This document shows positions 3,872 to 36,350 of a DNA stretch of 38,009 nucleotides, piece by piece. Numbering within the stretch: position 1 is the first letter of the stretch; each line of letters starts with the position of its first letter. The DNA comes from a virus. Below the pieces are notes generated by a model that was given only the letters and a program-made list of their open reading frames with translations, ran no database searches and had not been told where the DNA came from. The position numbers and the translations under genes were made by a program. The DNA lies in the IMG/VR virus record IMGVR_UViG_3300049032_000090, positions 1 through 38,009 of that record; one strand, written 5' to 3'.

Positions 3872-3900
3872 TTGTTTACTTATGCAAATACTTTTACAAT
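3872..3900 (+). promoter_or_regulatory. Promoter of the first structured RNA
   Basis: TTGTTT (3872-3877) and TACAAT (3895-3900) are spaced by 17 nt, with transcription predicted to begin near 3906. The sequence after the -10 (AGAATAG) resembles the start region shared by the late phage promoters. Confidence 0.65.
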
Positions 3901-3905
3901 AGAAT

Positions 3906-4366
3906 AGTTCGCAGTCTATGTTATAGGCGGTGATACGACGTTGAAAGCCCGGCTCATGTTGCACTTGAGGGAGAGGCGCCAATACTAGAGTCGCTTCTAG
4001 GTTCAACGTCGTTCTCTGTCTATAGCACTTGAAGGTAGCTGTGAGGCGAAGAGCCGCAAGTCATCGATTAGTACGTTATGGCCGTAGCGGGGTAAAGAGG
4101 TACTACTACTGCACCATTCGTTCGCCTCTCACATGCTTTCAATCAAAACTGTTGGTGCAGCCCTCACAGGCTTGGTGAACCGTGACTAAATGTTGACTCA
4201 CCTGACTTACTGAGCGCTGAACTATTGATCTCCTTGTTGGAACAGATCCCAACTGGCAAGCCGTATGAAGATACGTGAGCATTGGCAGGGAGTAGAGAAT
4301 AGCTTGTAATTGGTTTGTCCTGGTCCTGTCCCTCAAGTAGTAGGGAGTCTGGGACTATGCCCTCTG
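3906..4366 (+). ncRNA. Candidate large structured non-coding RNA (about 460 nt)
   Basis: There is no credible coding frame, but dense complementarity follows a good promoter. ACGACGTTGAA (3935-3945) pairs with 4002-4012 over 11 bp and encloses CTAGA/TCTAG. GAGGCGAA (4043-4050) pairs with TTCGCCTC (4121-4128). GCACCA (4111-4116) pairs with TGGTGC (4153-4158), crossing the previous helix as a pseudoknot. CTGTGAGG (4039-4046) can alternatively pair with CCTCACAG (4162-4169). GTTGG/CCAAC (4236-4240/4249-4253) and CGTAT-GAAG-ATACG (4262-4275) follow. Size and style resemble ornate phage RNAs such as ROOL or GOLLD, but no family identity is claimed. No terminator is seen, so it may read into the gene at 4380. 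Confidence 0.6.
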
Positions 4367-4367
4367 T

Positions 4368-4373
4368 TAGCAT
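4368..4373 (+). promoter_or_regulatory. -10-like element for a possible leaderless start at 4380
   Basis: TAGCAT lies exactly 6 nt before ATG 4380, and there is no ribosome binding site. No good -35 is seen, so the gene could instead be read from the upstream RNA transcript. Confidence 0.4.
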
Positions 4374-4379
4374 CGGTGG

Positions 4380-6000: not shown

Positions 6001-6744
6001 CTACTGCTTCACTAGCTCCAAGGTCTCAAGCTCAACCTCGTCTTCTAGTGGCGCATCGTCTTCGGGGTCAGGAATCACGGGCCAAATGGTGGCGTCTCCA
6101 CCTTCGTATCCCTTATGAACCTTGCCTCGTACTTCGTCTACATCAGACTCATTGCCCCACACGTGCCAGCCTTCGTGCTGGTTGCGAGCAAACATCTCTA
6201 AGTACGGACCAGGAGAGCAGTTGGTGATGAACTCATACTGCTCATCTGGCTTACGCGAGTGCTCACGCTTACGAGTCTCGATCATGTTGACCTGGCTACG
6301 TGCGTGGGGAAGTGTCCGCATAGAGCCCCGAACACCGAAGAGCAGAATCTCAGTGACGTTGCGGAAGTAGAAGCCGACGCCACGGCCATCAGGTCCACCG
6401 TCTTTACGACGCTTTGCCCAGATGACATTGGAGACATAACGGAAGCCCCAAGCCCTCATGACTTCGATGCCCTCGGGCAACAGCGCGTTAGGAACCCACA
6501 AGTAGAGGTGAGCGTTCTTGGCCAGTGCGTCTTCAACAGGAAGCGCCTTGATGTCTTCTAGAGTCATCGTGTCGTAGCGATCGAGCCGGCGGTGCTCGGG
6601 AGCAACCTTGCCCGTCCTGTTCTGGAATCGCCACGGTGGATCAGCAAGGACAGTTTGAAAGCCACCTTCTACTGAAGGAAGCGGAGTGAATGGTGTTGGC
6701 TCTACGTCAGCGCGCAACGGAGCGGGTCGAGAAGTCTTAGGCAT
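6001..6744 (-). CDS. MT-A70 family DNA adenine methyltransferase
   Basis: The product is an MT-A70 family N6-adenine methyltransferase of 247 residues. The catalytic DPPW motif stands at about residues 35-38 in LADPPWRFQNRTG. Family blocks follow in order: YDTMTLEDIKALPV, LYLWVPNALLPEG, RAWGFRYVSNVIWAKRR and the RSMRTLPHARSQ / EHSRKPDEQYEFI region, ending EMFARNQHEGWHVWGNE. An acidic tail ends the protein. ATG 6744 is preferred, with in-frame TTG 6750 as the alternative. It begins 12 nt after the endonuclease stop, so the pair is coupled. The expected role is to protect the genome against the adjacent BglII/BstYI-like enzyme. Confidence 0.9.
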   Translation of the reverse strand: MPKTSRPAPLRADVEPTPFTPLPSVEGGFQTVLADPPWRFQNRTGKVAPEHRRLDRYDTMTLEDIKALPVEDALAKNAHLYLWVPNALLPEGIEVMRAWGFRYVSNVIWAKRRKDGGPDGRGVGFYFRNVTEILLFGVRGSMRTLPHARSQVNMIETRKREHSRKPDEQYEFITNCSPGPYLEMFARNQHEGWHVWGNESDVDEVRGKVHKGYEGGDATIWPVIPDPEDDAPLEDEVELETLELVKQ

Positions 6745-6756
6745 GATCAAGCAATT

Positions 6757-7626
6757 CTAGTCGTTGTAGCGGTTCTCTTGTTCGACACGCATGACCACCA
6801 CGTCGATCTCCTCGTCAGTCAACTCGCTGGGAATCTTGGGCAGCTTTGTCTGGCGGGCAATTTCTCTCATTGCCGCCTCCTTCTCTGCTTTCGCCTTGTG
6901 GTACGCCTCAAGCAGCTCATCTGCGGTCGTGTGCTCTTCCCCAGGGCGCGGCACACCACGGCCAGCCCAGGTCGCTTGTGTTATCCCAACACCCAGGAAG
7001 GGACAGCCTCCAGAGTCGCCCCGAGTCATGCGGTCTTCGAGCTTCAACATGTTTGTGCTGGTGATGGTTCCGAGACGGCGGTACGCATCCTGACTTTGAA
7101 GGTCATCATTAGCGAGGCGTCGGATGCCTGCGTGATCTCTGGTGATCATCGTCGCAACGTCGATCAGGCCCATGTCATAAAGGGAGCGATATGCAGCGAG
7201 GTCACGGTCAAGGTTCCCATCCTTGGCATTCCACTCAACATCAATCGCCACGCGGCCCTTCATGTTGTCCACTTCGAAGCCAGGATTCACCACGCTGCTG
7301 TTCAAGTAGTCGATGTCATAGTTGGAAGCACTGAGACTTGCCTTCATCTTGCCCACGAGCTTTGATTCGGTCGTGATGCGTACTGCTCGCCATCCCAAGT
7401 CTTCGAAGTGCTTATCGAGCCTGTAAGCGATCTGACCGCGGTTGCCACCGGGGATTATGATGTCGGCGTCGTACAGTCTGAAGTCGCTGAGAACTTGAAC
7501 CAGATCGTCAAAGTGATCAGGGTTGCTAGCTTTGAAGACCGCCGCCGCGTTGCGCGTCTCGAGGAAGGTGTATCGGTCGAGTATGTCTTGAGAGAAGACG
7601 TCTTTGAATGAGTAGGTCAAGTCCAT
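6757..7626 (-). CDS. BglII/BstYI-family type II restriction endonuclease
   Basis: The 289-residue product resembles BglII and BstYI, which cut AGATCT and RGATCY. The core VDNMKGRVAIDVEWNAKDG puts D120, D129 and E131 (ATG 7626 numbering) where, from memory of BstYI, D119, E128 and Q130 stand. The segments RSLYDMGLIDVATMITRD and CPFLGVGITQATWAGRGVP also match the family order. A Lys/Glu-rich helix follows (about 230-260). ATG 7626 has AGGGG upstream. A longer GTG start at 7689, just after the previous gene's stop, is possible. With the downstream methyltransferase it forms a restriction-modification pair, possibly acting against rival phages or as an addiction module. Exact specificity cannot be read from sequence. 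Confidence 0.85.
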   Translation of the reverse strand: MDLTYSFKDVFSQDILDRYTFLETRNAAAVFKASNPDHFDDLVQVLSDFRLYDADIIIPGGNRGQIAYRLDKHFEDLGWRAVRITTESKLVGKMKASLSASNYDIDYLNSSVVNPGFEVDNMKGRVAIDVEWNAKDGNLDRDLAAYRSLYDMGLIDVATMITRDHAGIRRLANDDLQSQDAYRRLGTITSTNMLKLEDRMTRGDSGGCPFLGVGITQATWAGRGVPRPGEEHTTADELLEAYHKAKAEKEAAMREIARQTKLPKIPSELTDEEIDVVVMRVEQENRYND

Positions 7627-7697
7627 GCCCCTGACACTAGTTGAAGGCACGGACAAGATAGCGCAGTGGCTCGGCTTAGACCGTCCCACTAACTTGC

Positions 7698-11367: not shown

Positions 11368-11538
11368 ATGAACTTCAAGCGATTACCTGACAACCTATAC
11401 GAAACCTTTGTGACAGCTCTAATCGTTATTGGGCTTCCAGTAGTGGCCTACATCTATATCGATTGGCGCGCTGCACTTACCGCCTTCATCCTAGTGAACA
11501 TAGTCCTAGGGGTGATGGTCCTTCGAGGTAAAGAGTAA
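11368..11538 (+). CDS. Small two-helix membrane protein, 56 aa
   Basis: ATG 11368 to TAA 11536-11538, 56 residues, stop overlapping the portal start (TAATG). Two hydrophobic segments, FVTALIVIGLPVVAYIYI and ALTAFILVNIVLGVMVL, are separated by DWRA and predict a membrane hairpin. It is the first gene after the late-type promoter. Its place between terminase and portal is unusual for a membrane protein. A holin-like or portal-assembly role is possible, and none is shown. Confidence 0.6.
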   Translation: MNFKRLPDNLYETFVTALIVIGLPVVAYIYIDWRAALTAFILVNIVLGVMVLRGKE

Positions 11539-14159
11539 TGGGGCTGCTCTCTAAAGCGATCTCCAAAAGCTCAGTCAATCCTGTTGTACGTGGATCAGGT
11601 TATGAACTCAGCAAAGGATGGAGCGGCGGTGCTCTCGATTACTACCGACGCAACGACTATGAGAACGCCTACCCAAGCATCAGAGTCATCTCTCAGCGCT
11701 TTGCACGCATTGAACCGTTCACAGTGGATAAGACCGGTAAGAGCGTTGCTAGCAACGTCCTAGACCGCCTCTACACGCCTAACAAGCAGATGAGTGCTTA
11801 CGACTTCCGTCTAGCGCTTGCCGTGATGTGCCTGGTCCACAACAAGGTCTATGTCCGTGTTCATCACCGCACCACTCGCCTCACTGCCGAGACAATCACT
11901 GGGTTTACCTTCCTAGAAGGAGTCAGTGAGCACATCGTTGATGGAGCTGTTGAATACTGGCTACCAAACGCAGAGAAGCTTACGAGTGCTCAAGTAGCAG
12001 TCTTCCGTAGCCCCAACCCTTACGACCTAAACGACGGATTCAGTCCTGCCTTCGCAGCGCGTCGATGGACCGGCCTAGACGATCTTATTGCAGATCATCA
12101 AACAGGTTACTTCAGCAATGGAGCTGTACCAAGTGGACAGTTCATCATCACCGCTAAGACGGCCACTGACTACCAGGACATCGTCAAGGGCATCAAGGAG
12201 CATCACCAGGGCGCGGGCAAGAACAACAGCGTCATGTTCGCCCACCGTCCTGTTGCAGTAGATGGCAAGCCTATGGACTCACAGATCGAGTGGATTCCAT
12301 TCAGTTCCAGCAACAAAGAGATGGCGCTCAAAGACCTGTTCGAGCAGGCCAACAAGAAGATCGATTCTACTTACGGAGTGCCGGCCTCCCTCCGCGGCGT
12401 CAATGATGCGAACACTTATGCCTCAGTACGAGTGGACACCTTGATCTTCAACGAGAACACGCTAGATCCTTTCGCCTTGAACGTGTGGCAGAAGTTCACA
12501 CACGAGCTGAACCGTATGACCGGCGGCTTAGGTGTGGCTATTACCTACGAACTAGAGACACCGCTTATCGCTGACGAAGAGAAGGTCAAGGCCGACGCCA
12601 AGAAGACCGATGCTGAAACGCTCACTCATCTCACAGATGCCGGCTACACCTTAGACAGTGCCATTGCCTACGTACAGACAGGCGACATCAATGTCCTCAA
12701 GAAGCTACCTAAGCCAGAAGAGAAGCCTGAAGTCCTCAGTAGTGATGAGGCTAAGCACACGCCAGACCAGCCAGTTGACTTGACGCACCGTACGAGCGGT
12801 AAGGGCCTGTCTAAGTCAATTTCTGCTCGAGATTACCCTGACCTGTACGAGGGAACGGGCATCAATCCGGATGACCTGGGCTGCATCATGATTGACACTG
12901 AACAGCTCGACATCACTGACCTGGTTGAGGATGGAGAAGCTGATCTAGTTGAGGCTACTGATCGCCACGAGCATGCCATGGGCGCCGTCGCAGAGTTAGA
13001 ACCGCACATCACTTTGCTCTACGGCCTACTTGAGAACGGCAACGTTTGGAAAGACAAGGTAGATACGGTCCTCAAGGGTTGGAAGATCGAGACGGCAACC
13101 ATCGACAAGGTTGACTTCTTCGATACCCCTGACAGCTACGCAGTAATTGCTCACATCAAGGTCACTCCCGAACTGATCGATGGACACGAGCGCCTAACCC
13201 TGCTGCCACACATCCAGACCTTCAGTGAGTACAAGCCGCATATGACGCTTGCCTATGTGAAGAAGGATTCAGACGTAGATAAGTGGGTCAAAGCTCTAGG
13301 AGCGGCTTACAACGGCAAGGAAATCATGGTTTCCGGTATCAACTACGGTGATGAACCAGGTATATCGAAGACAGTCTCACTCCCAAAAGCTAAAGCCCTG
13401 TCGGACGAGGACAGGGCAGACTACGAGACGCAGCTAGAACGCGTTATCCATGAGCGGATGGCTGCACAGGTTGAAGCCGCCCTGTCTCTTGTTGCATCTA
13501 AGGCCGTATCAGATGAGGAGCCTGTAGATCCTGAAGAGGACGCTCTACTTGCTGCTGCCATGCTTGGCATCCTTCTTGCACTGATCGCTTCCCAGGGCGC
13601 ACTAGAGCACGCCGATAACTTGAAGCTGGTCTTTGAAGCTGGAATCAACACTGACAACGTCACTCCATTCAAGATGACAGGGGCTCAGGAAGCCGAGTAC
13701 CGCGCATATGTGGAGAAGGTAGGCCGGAGCTACAACCAGCAGACAGCCGAACGCATCCGCAACATCCTGGTCACATCTCGTGAGCAAGGCCTGACTGCAG
13801 CCGAGATGAAGTCTCAACTCAAGGGTCTACTCAATGAAGACTGGCGCATCAAACGAATCACTACGACCGAGATAAACAAGGCTGGTAATGAAGCGAGCCA
13901 GTACAGCATGGAGAACATCGCCAAGGAAACAGGGGCGGAAGTTCGTAAGGTCTGGACCCACAGCGGCGGCGACGATCCGTGCGAGTTCTGTCAGACCATG
14001 ATTGGCACGGAGATTGGACTTGACCAGGACTTTATAGCTCTTGGCGAATCGGTCCAAGGTGCAGATGGGGGAGTCAGAGTAAATGATTTCACCACAGTTC
14101 GCACTCCTGGCTTTCATCCTCACTGCCATTGCCGACCGACTTATGTAGTCGTCCGCTAA
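11538..14159 (+). CDS. Portal / 2H-phosphoesterase-like / MuF fusion protein
   Basis: The product (873 aa) joins three parts. Residues about 1-395 are an HK97-type portal, the dodecameric DNA gate and connector (GGALDYYRRNDYENAYPSIR, VPSGQFII, STYGVPASLRGV). Residues about 455-615 carry two HxT motifs of the 2H phosphoesterase fold, HITLLYGL (H490, T492) and HMTLAYV (H568, T570), 78 residues apart. Residues about 715-873 are a MuF head-morphogenesis domain with CEFCQTM (815-821) and a final HPHCHC. Portal-MuF fusions are known, and the 2H insertion is unusual. The same fold includes 2'-5' RNA ligase-like enzymes and the anti-CBASS nuclease Acb1, so cleavage of a cyclic nucleotide or RNA is possible. 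Start ATG 11538. Confidence 0.88.
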   Translation: MGLLSKAISKSSVNPVVRGSGYELSKGWSGGALDYYRRNDYENAYPSIRVISQRFARIEPFTVDKTGKSVASNVLDRLYTPNKQMSAYDFRLALAVMCLVHNKVYVRVHHRTTRLTAETITGFTFLEGVSEHIVDGAVEYWLPNAEKLTSAQVAVFRSPNPYDLNDGFSPAFAARRWTGLDDLIADHQTGYFSNGAVPSGQFIITAKTATDYQDIVKGIKEHHQGAGKNNSVMFAHRPVAVDGKPMDSQIEWIPFSSSNKEMALKDLFEQANKKIDSTYGVPASLRGVNDANTYASVRVDTLIFNENTLDPFALNVWQKFTHELNRMTGGLGVAITYELETPLIADEEKVKADAKKTDAETLTHLTDAGYTLDSAIAYVQTGDINVLKKLPKPEEKPEVLSSDEAKHTPDQPVDLTHRTSGKGLSKSISARDYPDLYEGTGINPDDLGCIMIDTEQLDITDLVEDGEADLVEATDRHEHAMGAVAELEPHITLLYGLLENGNVWKDKVDTVLKGWKIETATIDKVDFFDTPDSYAVIAHIKVTPELIDGHERLTLLPHIQTFSEYKPHMTLAYVKKDSDVDKWVKALGAAYNGKEIMVSGINYGDEPGISKTVSLPKAKALSDEDRADYETQLERVIHERMAAQVEAALSLVASKAVSDEEPVDPEEDALLAAAMLGILLALIASQGALEHADNLKLVFEAGINTDNVTPFKMTGAQEAEYRAYVEKVGRSYNQQTAERIRNILVTSREQGLTAAEMKSQLKGLLNEDWRIKRITTTEINKAGNEASQYSMENIAKETGAEVRKVWTHSGGDDPCEFCQTMIGTEIGLDQDFIALGESVQGADGGVRVNDFTTVRTPGFHPHCHCRPTYVVVR

Positions 14160-32745: not shown

Positions 32746-33240
32746 TCATGAAGCTGGAACCACTCTGACATGCGCCACCATAGCGTTACGCTCGGCGTGC
32801 AGTAGAACGGACGTGTATGCCTGCTGCCAGTCATCAAATACCCGTTCGTGCTCTCGCCATGCCATGTCCTCAAGACGCTGTGCATGTACCTTGAAACGAT
32901 CAGTCCCAAGAAACAGCGTCTCGTACCACTGAGGTACGTCCTGTAGGTCGCATTGCTCAGTGAGCGGTCCAAGTAGAACTGAGTCACCCGCCACAGCCTG
33001 CTTTCCCCTTAGAGATGTTGCATGGCACCAAAGGGCCAGCGTTGCTCGTCGGTTAGTCGGCAGATCAAGGTACGGAGCGCTCTCGCTTTGAAACAGCACT
33101 GCATCCGGACGATTCATGGTGAATCTTTCAGCAGTACCACCCAGCACGTCCTCTAGCGTTTTGATGTCCGCGAAATCACGAACCTCAAGCGGCTTGGAGT
33201 TGTCCGCTGGTATCAACAGCCCTTTGGTCAACTGGCTCAT
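32746..33240 (-). CDS. DUF3846-like protein, copy 1
   Basis: With ATG 33240 the product is 164 residues, equal in length to the other copy (34020-34514). The DUF3846-type block reads GLLIPADNSKPLEVRDFADI, a Phe-rich strand with SESAPYLDLP, then NRRATLALW. The C-terminal half ends AMVAHVRVVPAS, matching the RCRVVPAEN end of the second copy. GGAAGGAG touches the ATG, and GTG 33267 is an alternative. It overlaps the ArdC-like gene. DUF3846 proteins occur with ArdC in mobile elements; the role is unknown. Confidence 0.65.
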   Translation of the reverse strand: MSQLTKGLLIPADNSKPLEVRDFADIKTLEDVLGGTAERFTMNRPDAVLFQSESAPYLDLPTNRRATLALWCHATSLRGKQAVAGDSVLLGPLTEQCDLQDVPQWYETLFLGTDRFKVHAQRLEDMAWREHERVFDDWQQAYTSVLLHAERNAMVAHVRVVPAS

Positions 33241-34015
33241 CTCCTTCCGGTTCTTCCAGTCCCGCACGGTAGATTTTGTCCGCCGTACTAAAGACTCGCT
33301 TTACGGATGACTCAGGTGGTTCTTCACCCTGGAGCCATGTCTGGATATAGGAGCGGCTTTCGGCTGCGTCGAACTGGTCTGTTGAACCAAGCTCATTCAT
33401 CAGCAGGTAGGCCGATCCTTCCGCCTCGAACTCACAGAGTCCGCGGTGGGTCCGGTACTCGTCCATCTGGTCAGGCACGGTATGCCCAGCCACGATGTGC
33501 GAGAACTCGTGCAGCGTTGTCTTGAACGGATAGACCGCAACCGGGTTGATCGCGAACTGCCGGGCAGTCGAGTAACCCTGGGAGTTGCCTTCCAGCGACT
33601 CGTAGGGAACTTGGATCAGCGAGAGCTTGCGCATCGCTAGTTCCTTGCTCCAATGAGGAGGCTGGTACTCGGGTAGATCCTCACCTTCAGTTTCAGAGAC
33701 GCCGAAGATCGACGGCACCAGCTTGAAGCCGGATAGCCGTTTCTCTTCTTCGCCCTTATCTGTCAGCTCCTTTCGGAACATGGGGACGTAGATAACCTTG
33801 GCCTTGCTGCCCTTCTTTACCTGTCGGTCCAGTGCCAGCCAGCCCTTGTAGGTGTTCACCGGTTCCATAAGCCCCTGCATCATCAGGAGCGCCTGGTTGC
33901 CCAGTGAGAAGCGCCTGAAGCGGTTGTACGTGCTTCCAGCTTGTCCAGGGAGTTCCAGTGCCGTCTTGAGCAGATCAGACCAGTGAGGGGGCGTTGTAAG
34001 CCGTTCGCCGGTCAT
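33185..34015 (-). CDS. ArdC-like antirestriction protein with zinc-peptidase motif
   Basis: The product (276 aa) has an ArdC N-terminal-like single-strand-binding domain (HWSDLLKTALELPGQAGSTY, then NRFRRFSLGNQALLMMQGL, WLALDRQVKKGSKAKVIYVP) and a C-terminal metallopeptidase-like domain with TLHEFSHIVAGHT (HEFSH zinc motif, about 168-172) and a later Glu in CEFEAEGSAYLLM. ArdC of plasmids protects incoming single-stranded DNA from restriction. It begins at ATG 34015, directly after the TAG of the upstream DUF3846-like gene, so the three are one unit. In this genome it fits an entry or transfer role alongside the relaxase-like protein. Confidence 0.82.
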   Translation of the reverse strand: MTGERLTTPPHWSDLLKTALELPGQAGSTYNRFRRFSLGNQALLMMQGLMEPVNTYKGWLALDRQVKKGSKAKVIYVPMFRKELTDKGEEEKRLSGFKLVPSIFGVSETEGEDLPEYQPPHWSKELAMRKLSLIQVPYESLEGNSQGYSTARQFAINPVAVYPFKTTLHEFSHIVAGHTVPDQMDEYRTHRGLCEFEAEGSAYLLMNELGSTDQFDAAESRSYIQTWLQGEEPPESSVKRVFSTADKIYRAGLEEPEGDEPVDQRAVDTSGQLQAA

Positions 34016-34019
34016 TGCT

Positions 34020-34514
34020 CTAGTTCTCAGCCGGAACGACTCGGCAGCGTTGTACCGCTGACCAAGACTCGGCCTTGCCCAGTGCATAGTTCGCGGCTAC
34101 AAAGTAGTCCTCGAACCGCATTCTGTTGCCGTTGAACTTGTTGGCGTCGTCGTACGTTTGAAACTCAGCCTTGTAAGACTTCGTTTCAAACAGGAGCTTG
34201 GTGACGGCTTCCGGAACATCGGTGGAGTTGCCCTGTTCGTCGGGGTGTCCGACCATTAGAGCTTCGCCAACGATGACATCCATATGCCGTGCGCTTGGGA
34301 AGAGCAACCACCACATGAGCGTTGCCCTGCGGTTGATTGGCTGCTGCTCAAGCTTGCCTTCCTCGTTCACGAAGAACGTGGCGTGCAATGGCCCGAGGTC
34401 GATGGCCTGAATGAGGCCACCAACTGCGGCCTGCATGCTGGAGAGGCCGTTGACTTCTACTTTGTAAAGGGGTCGATCCTCATCGTGCGGGATTTGGATG
34501 GCGTGAATCACCAC
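34020..34514 (-). CDS. DUF3846-like protein, copy 2
   Basis: The start GTG 34514 (or 34511) follows AAGGAAG at about 8 nt; the longer frame to 34694 overlaps the nuclease gene. The 164-residue product has the DUF3846 pattern: VIHAIQIPHDEDRPLYKVEV, GLSSMQAAVGGLIQAIDLGP, ATFFVNEEGKLEQQPINRRA. The second half ends ALGKAESWSAVQRCRVVPAE. The equal length and matching ends show that copy 1 is a paralog. It sits before the ArdC-like gene with a 4-nt gap. Confidence 0.7.
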   Translation of the reverse strand: MVIHAIQIPHDEDRPLYKVEVNGLSSMQAAVGGLIQAIDLGPLHATFFVNEEGKLEQQPINRRATLMWWLLFPSARHMDVIVGEALMVGHPDEQGNSTDVPEAVTKLLFETKSYKAEFQTYDDANKFNGNRMRFEDYFVAANYALGKAESWSAVQRCRVVPAEN

Positions 34515-34585
34515 GTCAATCACTTCCTTAATCGTGGAATGTACTTGAAGCCGGTTAGCTCCAAGATTCAGCCCACGATCAGGGC

Positions 34586-35122
34586 CTACTTCTTCTCTTT
34601 CTTGACCTTCTTGTTCGAGCAATAGGTGCAGTTCTTCACGAGACACTTCTTCTCGCCAGGGCTCACCATGTTGCCGCCGCGACACTCGCTCCACGTTGAG
34701 CGGATGGCACCGGGTTTGATATCGGCCGGATCAACAACTGTTCCGCTACCTGTCATGAGTACTGGTTCTTTGAGGCGCTTGATCTCTGTTCGGTGCTGCT
34801 GCGTCTCCGCTACGAGGTCTACAAGATCACTGAAACGCACTGTGGCTAAGACTTCATCGTCTGCCTGAAACACCAAGGTAGGGATGCGGCTGAAGCTTGC
34901 GCCTGAGACTGTCTGCTTCCACCACTCGCGTATCTTGATCGTCTTATGGTTCTTGCACTCGATGTCTAGGGGAGTGTCTTGGAAGTAGTCGTTCAAGTCC
35001 ATCTTCTGGTGAGTGCCGGCCCCGCTGCGTTTATCCCTGGACACACGAGCTCCTAGCTTCTTCTGCAAGAGCTTGGCTACTTGCTTCTCTAGCGAGACTC
35101 CCTTGTCTGAAGATACGCTCAC
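34586..35122 (-). CDS. PD-(D/E)XK nuclease, Holliday-resolvase-like, with zinc tail
   Basis: The 178-residue product carries GVSLEKQVAKLLQKKLGARV, SRDKRSGAGTHQKMDLNDYF and LDIECKNHKTIKI, the E...D...ExK core of PD-(D/E)XK nucleases related to archaeal-type Holliday junction resolvases. A coiled segment follows (LVDLVAETQQHRTEIKRLKE), then a Cys-rich tail (C-x12-C-x4-C-x2-C: ECRGGNMVSPGEKKCLVKN and CTYCSNKK) that may bind zinc. It would resolve replication or recombination branches before packaging. GTG 35122 overlaps the stop of the preceding 57-residue gene as GTGA. Confidence 0.78.
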   Translation of the reverse strand: MSVSSDKGVSLEKQVAKLLQKKLGARVSRDKRSGAGTHQKMDLNDYFQDTPLDIECKNHKTIKIREWWKQTVSGASFSRIPTLVFQADDEVLATVRFSDLVDLVAETQQHRTEIKRLKEPVLMTGSGTVVDPADIKPGAIRSTWSECRGGNMVSPGEKKCLVKNCTYCSNKKVKKEKK

Positions 35123-35292
35123 CCCTGAATCTCTTCTGGTGAGTGTCTCAGAAGTAGTACAGGCCTACCCATCGTTCGATGTAATCGCCACTTCCAGAAC
35201 TGGACTCGGAGCTTCAAGTAAGTCCAATAGCTTACGTTCAATAGCTCGCTGTCTAAATCTGTTACGCGAGATGAGTATTTGATTAGTCTCAT
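35119..35292 (-). CDS. Small protein coupled to the nuclease, 57 aa
   Basis: ATG 35292 has AAGGAGG with 6-nt spacing, and TGA 35119-35121 overlaps the GTG start of the nuclease. The 57-residue basic product begins MRLIKYSSRVTDLDSELLNV and contains TYLKLRVQFWKWRLHRTMGR. A longer frame in another register (35165-35371) lacks this signal and is rejected. Role unknown; it may be the leader gene for the operon. Confidence 0.6.
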   Translation of the reverse strand: MRLIKYSSRVTDLDSELLNVSYWTYLKLRVQFWKWRLHRTMGRPVLLLRHSPEEIQG

Positions 35293-35309
35293 CGTTCACC
35301 TCCTTATAA

Positions 35310-36008
35310 TTTCTAGGTTTGCTCGCCGCCGTCGGGTCTCGCGGCTCCCTCATACACAAGGGGAGAGCCACTACGAAAGGGTTTCTACGCTGCCAACCTC
35401 AACCTTTTATGTGGCAGTAGCGACGAGCTGTTGAACGTACGAGTCTTCCGGTGAGGGCAACTCCTACGTCCAGTTCCGCCTAGGTAAGGGTGGGCATCAC
35501 CTAAGCGGAACTGGTAAAGAGCGCGCCAGGGTAGTTTTAAATAAAAGAACCTTTCGAAAAGATTAGTTATTTGTCCTGGTGCGCCCATCAAGCCCAACGA
35601 GTTGTCTCGTGAGGCTTGATGGATATTGTGCAGTTACATGGCTGCTAGTAGTCAGGTACAGAGCCATCAAGGACTTACCCATCGGAGCCGACTACTAGCT
35701 GGTCTATGTAAGCCGAGCGGGGCGGGCATGACGTGTACGTTTCCCCGAACTGTCCGCTCTACCCTCTTGCAAGTACACTCACTCAGGTTTCATTACATAG
35801 CCATGTTGAACATATAAGGCAGAGAGCCGACTCACCTATTCGCGGTCAGCAGTCATCTGTTACCGCGAACCCTCTGCAACAGGGTATCCGTCTGTGCACG
35901 ACGCTTATATGTCCATGTAACTGCACAACTGATTGTCAAAGTTCAATGGAGAATAGTTGCCGTAGTTGGTTCTACGCGGTCTGCCGCCGAAGCGGTTTGC
36001 GGGCAACG
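35310..36008. ncRNA. Second large structured RNA candidate (about 600-700 nt), strand undecided
   Basis: No convincing gene lies in about 720 nt. A 16-bp perfect helix (35626-35641/35913-35928) encloses 271 nt with a 10-bp hairpin 35644-35653/35690-35699, 8 bp 35704-35711/35793-35800, 6 bp 35715-35720/35754-35759, 9 bp 35810-35818/35904-35912 and 8 bp 35839-35846/35862-35869. GTGTAC (35733-35738) can pair with 35773-35778, crossing the 6-bp helix as a pseudoknot. Before it are 10-bp hairpins at 35521-35530/35575-35584 and 35585-35594/35613-35622, and a 9-bp arm, CAGTTCCGC (35470-35478), pairing with a perfect complement near 35504-35512. After it a three-way unit spans 35957-36008. Wobble pairs give conflicting strand hints. 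Size and complexity recall GOLLD/ROOL phage RNAs. Confidence 0.6.
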
Positions 36009-36014
36009 CTCCCT

Positions 36015-36122
36015 CTATCGGAGGTCCTGATCCATCTCGTCTGGGACGAACTTGATCATGAGTGCCAACAGGGCGACTGCAACGGCTAGTGCCCCGATGA
36101 TCATGTACGCTAGGTAGTCCAT
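36015..36122 (-). CDS. Small single-span membrane protein, 35 aa
   Basis: ATG 36122 has AGGAGG with 6-nt spacing; TAG at 36015-36017. The product begins MDYLAYMIIGALAVAVALLA, a membrane helix of about 20 residues, then KFVPDEMDQDLR. It overlaps the end of the preceding gene by 13 nt. Tiny one-helix proteins such as this are often missed. A lysis or envelope role is possible. Confidence 0.6.
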   Translation of the reverse strand: MDYLAYMIIGALAVAVALLALMIKFVPDEMDQDLR

Positions 36123-36304: not shown

Positions 36305-36322
36305 TTGTATCTCCTGCCTTTG

Positions 36323-36350
36323 ACTATAAAGAATTGTTCAAAATAGTCAA
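36323..36350 (-). promoter_or_regulatory. Promoter of the right early unit
   Basis: On the minus strand TTGACT (36345-36350) and TATAGT (36323-36328) are spaced 16 nt. The -35 is inside the operator-like palindrome, as at 2336-2364. Confidence 0.72.

Follow-up and report, generated by a model that had tools for sequence, protein, structure and literature searches.

Two small genes of an actinobacterial phage are separated by some 700-720 noncoding bases that make up a genuine structured RNA, unnamed until now, whose base pairs persist through matched substitutions in phage-like relatives. Its family is absent from Rfam and has the support of compensatory changes. The RNA most likely serves as a switch ahead of a nuclease/anti-restriction operon rather than as a free RNA cage. 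Our preferred reading, which is drawn from sequence comparison and to which we assign a probability of about one half, is that it forms the long, modular, structured 5' leader of this operon, on the minus strand, and acts in cis.

RESULTS

Fold and coding content of the region

The DNA analyzed (the window, which here means the whole stretch) is a 38,009-base virus record with genes for terminase, portal, capsid, tape-measure protein and serine integrase. Positions 35310-36012 cover the exact span from a 35-aa open reading frame (ORF) to the ribosome-binding site (RBS) of the next gene, both codirectional on the minus strand (Table 1). The minus-strand fold of this span is large and branched, with z-scores against dinucleotide shuffles of -8.5 (minus) and -6.0 (plus) and none of 20 shuffles equally stable; a repeat of the folding gave -7.6 and -5.2. 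The original prediction had described an area without a credible gene, crowded with long helices and inverted repeats, among them a perfect 16-bp helix. These helices and repeats are present in the sequence, the 16-bp helix included, and neither of the two longest ORFs inside 35310-36012 has a Pfam match. The broader claim of a large, nested, structured phage RNA is borne out by the shuffle z-scores together with the compensatory changes described below. Two further claims fared less well. A crossing pair had been proposed between 35733-35738 and 35773-35778; the words GTGTAC and GTACAC are there, but they are absent from relatives that keep the surrounding helix, and the pair was rejected as part of the structure. 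Two separate structured regions had also been expected, but the other long noncoding folded stretch that we looked at (3880-4379, with long stems, possibly the region then meant) did not exceed dinucleotide shuffles in stability (z = -0.6 and +0.8).

Known families offered no match. Covariance models of Rfam 15, run over both strands of the window, gave nothing at the gathering threshold or at an E value of ≤10, and no tRNA or tmRNA in the window was recognized by ARAGORN or Rfam. The best blastn match of the region to cultured phages was at chance level (E = 0.8), and the window genome holds no second copy of the structured RNA that we could find. Inside the folded region there are no terminator-like sites (2.1 expected), and promoter-like sites lie solely outside it, with no sigma-70-like promoter on either strand of 35310-36012.

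Table 1. Features of the structured RNA and its surroundings in the window, in order of transcription on the minus strand
Feature	Position	Strand	Remark
Promoter-like TTGACT-16-TATAGT	36320-36350	minus	the sequence itself at 36350-36323; 10 of 12 matches; relatives promoter-like at the same place
Dyad TTGACTAT...ATAGTCAA, overlapped by the promoter-like sequence	within 36320-36350	minus	possible operator
Short leader ORF, 64 aa	36110-36304	minus	GTG start, basic stretch
35-aa membrane-like ORF	36015-36122	minus	stop 7 nt ahead of helix P1
5' domain D5, three-way junction	35956-36007	minus	covariance model R1, 56 bits
Linker CATTGAACTTTGACA	35934-35948	minus	common to window and L110
16-bp helix, 5' strand	35913-35928	minus	pairs with 35626-35641
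Domain closed by ACAUAUAAG/CUUAUAUGU	35807-35915	minus	two double changes
Helix CUAUGUAA/UUACAUAG with conserved GGCUUACAUAGACCAG	35699-35802	minus	counterparts in relatives
Hairpin GCUAGUAGUC/GACUACUAGC	35644-35699	minus	same hairpin in L232, 2195-2341
16-bp helix, 3' strand	35626-35641	minus	pairs with 35913-35928
Module M1, hairpin CCAUCAAG/CUUGAUGG	35585-35622	minus	5 of 8 pairs double-changed, six elements
Module M2, hairpin GCGCACCAGG/CCUGGCGCGC	35521-35584	minus	5 of 9 pairs double-changed
Hairpin with near-perfect 16-nt arms (CCAGUUCCGC...)	35470-35514	minus	no counterpart matched so far
3' module, closing helix CUCGUCGC/GCGGCGAG around CUGCC...GGCAG	35321-35428	minus	
Strong RBS	35296-35307	minus	immediately after the 3' module; same layout in relatives
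57-aa ORF	35119-35292	minus	first gene after the RNA; no Pfam match
PDDEXK_15/RusA-like nuclease gene	34586-35122	minus	RNA upstream in all ten elements
DUF3846 gene	34020-34694	minus	
ArdC-N anti-restriction-like gene	33185-34087	minus	

Relatives of the RNA

Because DNA searches had found nothing, the downstream PDDEXK nuclease gene was used as a hook to find relatives. Nine actinobacterial prophages or phage contigs carry a noncoding region of 200-950 nt on the same strand upstream of this gene: L082 (IMG/VR 3300049136_000037), L101, L102, L105 (Arthrobacter sp. AL12), L110, L111, L112, L113 and L232. L112 and L113 are from the genus of L105, and L110 and L111 are from another genus of the same family. 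The region is shortest, at about 200 nt, in L082 and L105 and longest, at about 950 nt, in L232. Each of the seven long members tested exceeds its shuffles in fold stability; the two short members, taken whole, do not. The relatives have in common a 5' three-way junction (GUUGCC/GGCAAC with a conserved AGACCGN), which is absent from L111, and a set of exchangeable hairpin modules.

Beyond these elements, no PDDEXK homologues were found in phage and plasmid collections, no match to cultured phages was obtained by blastn with the L082, L110 and L102 versions of the RNA, and the nuclease homologues L097 and L233, which are more distant, have no such RNA upstream. The nuclease of L112 is 92% identical to that of the window, yet its RNA is of the L102 type, and for this reason RNA modules and nuclease genes appear to recombine. 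In another record, L083 (IMG/VR 3300013772_000066), the sequence passes abruptly from capsid genes to an internal point of the nuclease gene at 1950-1990; this record is probably a chimeric assembly.

The 5' domain

D5 consists, in order, of helix P1, CG, an optional P2 hairpin, AGACCGN and helix P3, which abuts the 3' strand of P1. In the window these are GUUGCC/GGCAAC for P1, a cUUCGg loop on P2, AGACCGC, and GUAG/CUAC for P3; the UUCG loop of P2 recurs in L082 and L105. Double changes number two in P1, four in P2 and three in P3. A covariance model of this domain, R1, was built from six sequences, with L082 and L232 outside the seed. All cells of the seed alignment pair, and none of 500 shuffles had as many cells with changes in both partners. 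R1 retrieved both non-seed members, L082 with an E value of 0.006 over 353 kb and L232 with 18.7 bits and an E value of 0.014; D5 of L105 was the top score in its locus, and in the window 35956-36007 is the sole copy. A search of 395 genomes with R1 gave no convincing copy without a PDDEXK gene, although the genome of L105, which does carry the RNA, was also missed. False positives were obtained in G430 and G223, where the matches fall within aminotransferase-like and oxidoreductase-like genes. In pattern scans of IMG/VR for D5, L084 and L200 alone were genuine and the other 25 matches look like chance; the 78 loci from a scan for GGCTTACATRGACCAG were taken as chance en bloc rather than one by one.

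Middle and 3' modules

The helices and modules were aligned by hand over the sample of ten elements, and this comparison with related phages revealed conserved pairing with compensatory changes. Of 251 cells in eight helices so aligned, 246 pair (98%); exchanging strands among relatives lowers the figure to 634 of 892 (71%). Double changes occur at 27 of the 64 pair positions. Counterparts of the 16-bp helix, of the ACAUAUAAG/CUUAUAUGU helix, of the CUAUGUAA/UUACAUAG helix with GGCUUACAUAGACCAG, and of M1 and M2 occur in L232, L110, L101 and the L102 group. The orthologue of the 16-bp helix in L232 (1811-1827 with 2342-2358) has three double changes and one A.C mismatch. The 3' module is common to the window, L082 and L105, with three double changes with respect to the other two.

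In L232 and L110 the helix homologous to ACAUAUAAG/CUUAUAUGU encloses a tRNA-Leu-like sequence, GCATACAAGTGGCGGAATAGGTAAACGCGC...TCGAATCCCTGCCTTGTATGC (1892-2114 in L232; about 1085-1230, degenerate, in L110). The window retains the enclosing helix (35807-35818 with 35904-35915) without the tRNA-like interior. Neither ARAGORN nor Rfam accepts these stretches as tRNA, and Rfam gave chance-level matches alone for the L232 and L110 RNAs. We regard the tRNA-Leu-like sequence inside long members as a lead, not as a claim.

Strand, gene context and leader ORFs

It had been suggested that the strand of the RNA could not be fixed. This is true of wobble pairs alone, since deviations in the helix alignments number 7 G.U against 5 A.C on the sense strand, but the minus strand can be chosen, chiefly on the basis of gene context together with the stronger fold. 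In all 10 elements the region precedes the PDDEXK gene on its coding strand, an association that arises partly by construction because the relatives were found through that gene, and the coding strand folds better relative to shuffles in six of the seven long members. The region ends some 15-30 nt ahead of an RBS. The first gene behind it varies, being a 57-aa ORF, an 86-aa ORF, another ORF or the nuclease itself, and in L232 a transposase gene separates the RNA from the nuclease.

Short ORFs precede the RNA in seven relatives; none is present in L082. They are mostly basic and weakly conserved in sequence (15-24% identical to that of the window), with a weakly conserved N-terminal motif. The upstream ORF stops close to the RNA: in eight of the nine elements with D5 the stop lies between -13 and +21 nt from P1 (7 nt in the window; -13, 10, 15, 5, 5, 5 and 21 nt elsewhere). 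In L101 (about 3463), L102 (3299), L112 and L113 the ORF apparently starts with AUU, and L110 has AUG at the same place; AUU is a rare start codon, known from infC autoregulation.

Other features of the element

The window encodes a Replic_Relax protein (PF13814; 2396-3262, plus strand) and a TraG/VirD4-like coupling protein (PF10412; 27007-29451, minus strand), and such conjugation-type genes in a phage-like element merit separate study. An MT-A70 methyltransferase adjoins a BglII-like restriction endonuclease at 6001-7689 (minus strand), a restriction-modification pair in a phage. An 873-aa ORF at 11538-14159 (plus strand) matches portal, RNA-ligase/phosphoesterase and head-morphogenesis families in succession; its product appears to be a portal fusion that has a ligase-like domain at its center.

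DISCUSSION

Our results suggest that the RNA is a cis-acting leader switch, because an upstream stop lies near P1, the 3' end lies at an RBS and no terminator-like site intervenes. As the 3' end always precedes an RBS while the gene behind it varies, the target would be the operon and not one gene. From this arrangement we infer that the region is transcribed and acts in cis, in the following way. A promoter overlapping a dyad would drive transcription of the short ORF, and a stop codon (in the window, that of the second small ORF) would fall at the base of P1. The folded RNA would comprise the 5' three-way junction, the variable hairpin modules and the 3' module that ends before the RBS of the operon. 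In the default state this fold may restrict transcriptional read-through or the access of ribosomes. The leader would then refold and release the operon when the upstream ORF is translated or its basic product binds the 5' domain, possibly on entry of the element into a cell or on induction; a ribosome at the stop of the upstream ORF would cover one strand of P1. To our knowledge, known attenuators are far shorter than a 700-nt leader, which counts against a switch of this kind. If the reading is correct, it may represent a general way for mobile elements to hold establishment and anti-defense operons silent until needed. We propose more tentatively, and at clearly less than even odds, a new class of very large modular leader RNA (200-950 nt) with exchangeable hairpin and tRNA-like modules. 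Such an RNA would be gated by a ribosome terminating, or a short basic peptide made, just upstream, and would so control an anti-defense-type operon in phage-like elements carrying conjugation-type genes.

Several other explanations need to be weighed. The size, ornate branching and phage location of the RNA would suit a free RNA that is processed from the leader and acts in trans, forming a particle or binding a protein as GOLLD, ROOL or OLE does. The tRNA-Leu-like sequence in the long members L232 and L110 points the same way, as GOLLD is often near or contains tRNAs. We nevertheless consider a free RNA unlikely: no Rfam family matched beyond chance, the region abuts an RBS and has no terminator-like site, and the members of about 200 nt, L082 and L105, lack the entire middle. 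The free multimeric RNA implied by the original prediction is thus not supported, and a modular leader fits better than a fixed cage because of the placement from ORF stop to RBS, the missing terminator and the variation in size from about 200 to 950 nt. The RNA might instead be a partner of the PDDEXK nuclease, as a guide, a scaffold or the autoregulatory site of a junction-binding enzyme; the nuclease lies downstream in all ten elements, D5 is a branched junction and PHROGs labels the enzyme RusA-like. This is very improbable in our view, as the 178-aa nuclease shows no sign of an RNA-binding domain, the closely similar nuclease of L112 goes with a different RNA type, that of L233 (55% identity) goes with none and other genes intervene in some elements.

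It is also conceivable that the folded strand functions as single-stranded DNA, as a promoter of the Frpo type or as a priming site during DNA entry or single-stranded DNA replication. Of nine records tested, seven have a Replic_Relax homologue, divergent from the RNA and at a distance of 4-9 kb, and six have the coupling protein; both are encoded in the window. ArdC and DUF3846 would suit an entry region, and the G.U and A.C deviations are nearly balanced. Such an element is nonetheless improbable, given that the folded region has no sigma-70-like promoter on either strand and is much longer than known single-stranded promoters (an argument made also for EGeRS1 [PMC8708921]), and that the element, for which conjugation is hypothetical, has tailed-phage structural genes. 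The strongly variable number of modules and the transposase gene of L232 could suggest mobile hairpins or decaying repeats without RNA function. Junction motifs are conserved at fixed places, however, helices covary at orthologous positions and the genome has no second copy; the covariation contradicts this reading, and we give it hardly any weight.

Comparison of the leader with known systems shows likenesses of several kinds. The put RNA of phage HK022 is an antiterminator of about 70 nt, located near an early promoter, that acts in cis on RNA polymerase. The RNA described here likewise lies near a possible early promoter and may act in cis; it has no match to put in sequence or size, and its host is actinobacterial. 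GOLLD (RF02032) and ROOL (RF03087), with which kinship had been suggested, are similarly large and ornate RNAs from phages and bacteria, and some members here contain tRNA-like sequence. In contrast to them, the present RNA has no Rfam match even at an E value of ≤10, varies fourfold in size and is built into an operon leader; nothing beyond size and style is common to it and GOLLD, ROOL and OLE (PMC12286853). Frpo and ssi single-stranded DNA promoters are likewise folded noncoding DNA before anti-defense genes, and Frpo candidates are defined partly by a -35/-10 promoter within the folded strand (PMC11541004), whereas the fold in the window has no inner -35/-10 sequence and is much longer.

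The closest analogue is EGeRS1 of the Bacillus plasmid pLS20, inverted repeats of 420-750 bp found directly 5' of the ardC RBS and of the RBSs heading four further operons (PMC8708921). In the native orientation alone, EGeRS1 halts read-through coming from a promoter 5' of it; a constitutive promoter was not found for it, and its authors argue against a single-stranded DNA promoter, with length among their arguments (PMC8708921). Like the RNA described here, it consists of nested inverted repeats of 400-750 nt immediately upstream of an RBS and heads ardC-containing operons; the region in the window likewise heads an establishment-type operon. Both are modular in length, one EGeRS1 copy being without the 5' part, and their fold strength is of the same order (z = -10.2 for the 613-nt EGeRS1-B of pLS20, folded here). 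The two differ in that EGeRS1 is present in five copies per plasmid (PMC8708921), while here each element has one copy of the RNA, preceded by promoter-like sequence and a short ORF, and the hosts of the RNA are actinobacterial phages. There is no recognizable sequence kinship: R1, the 5'-domain model and the sole model tested, gave no match to EGeRS1-B (best score, 6.3 bits; E = 1.5). The two look alike and may work alike, and the unexplained folded leader of the EGeRS1 type gains a parallel in an unrelated phylum.
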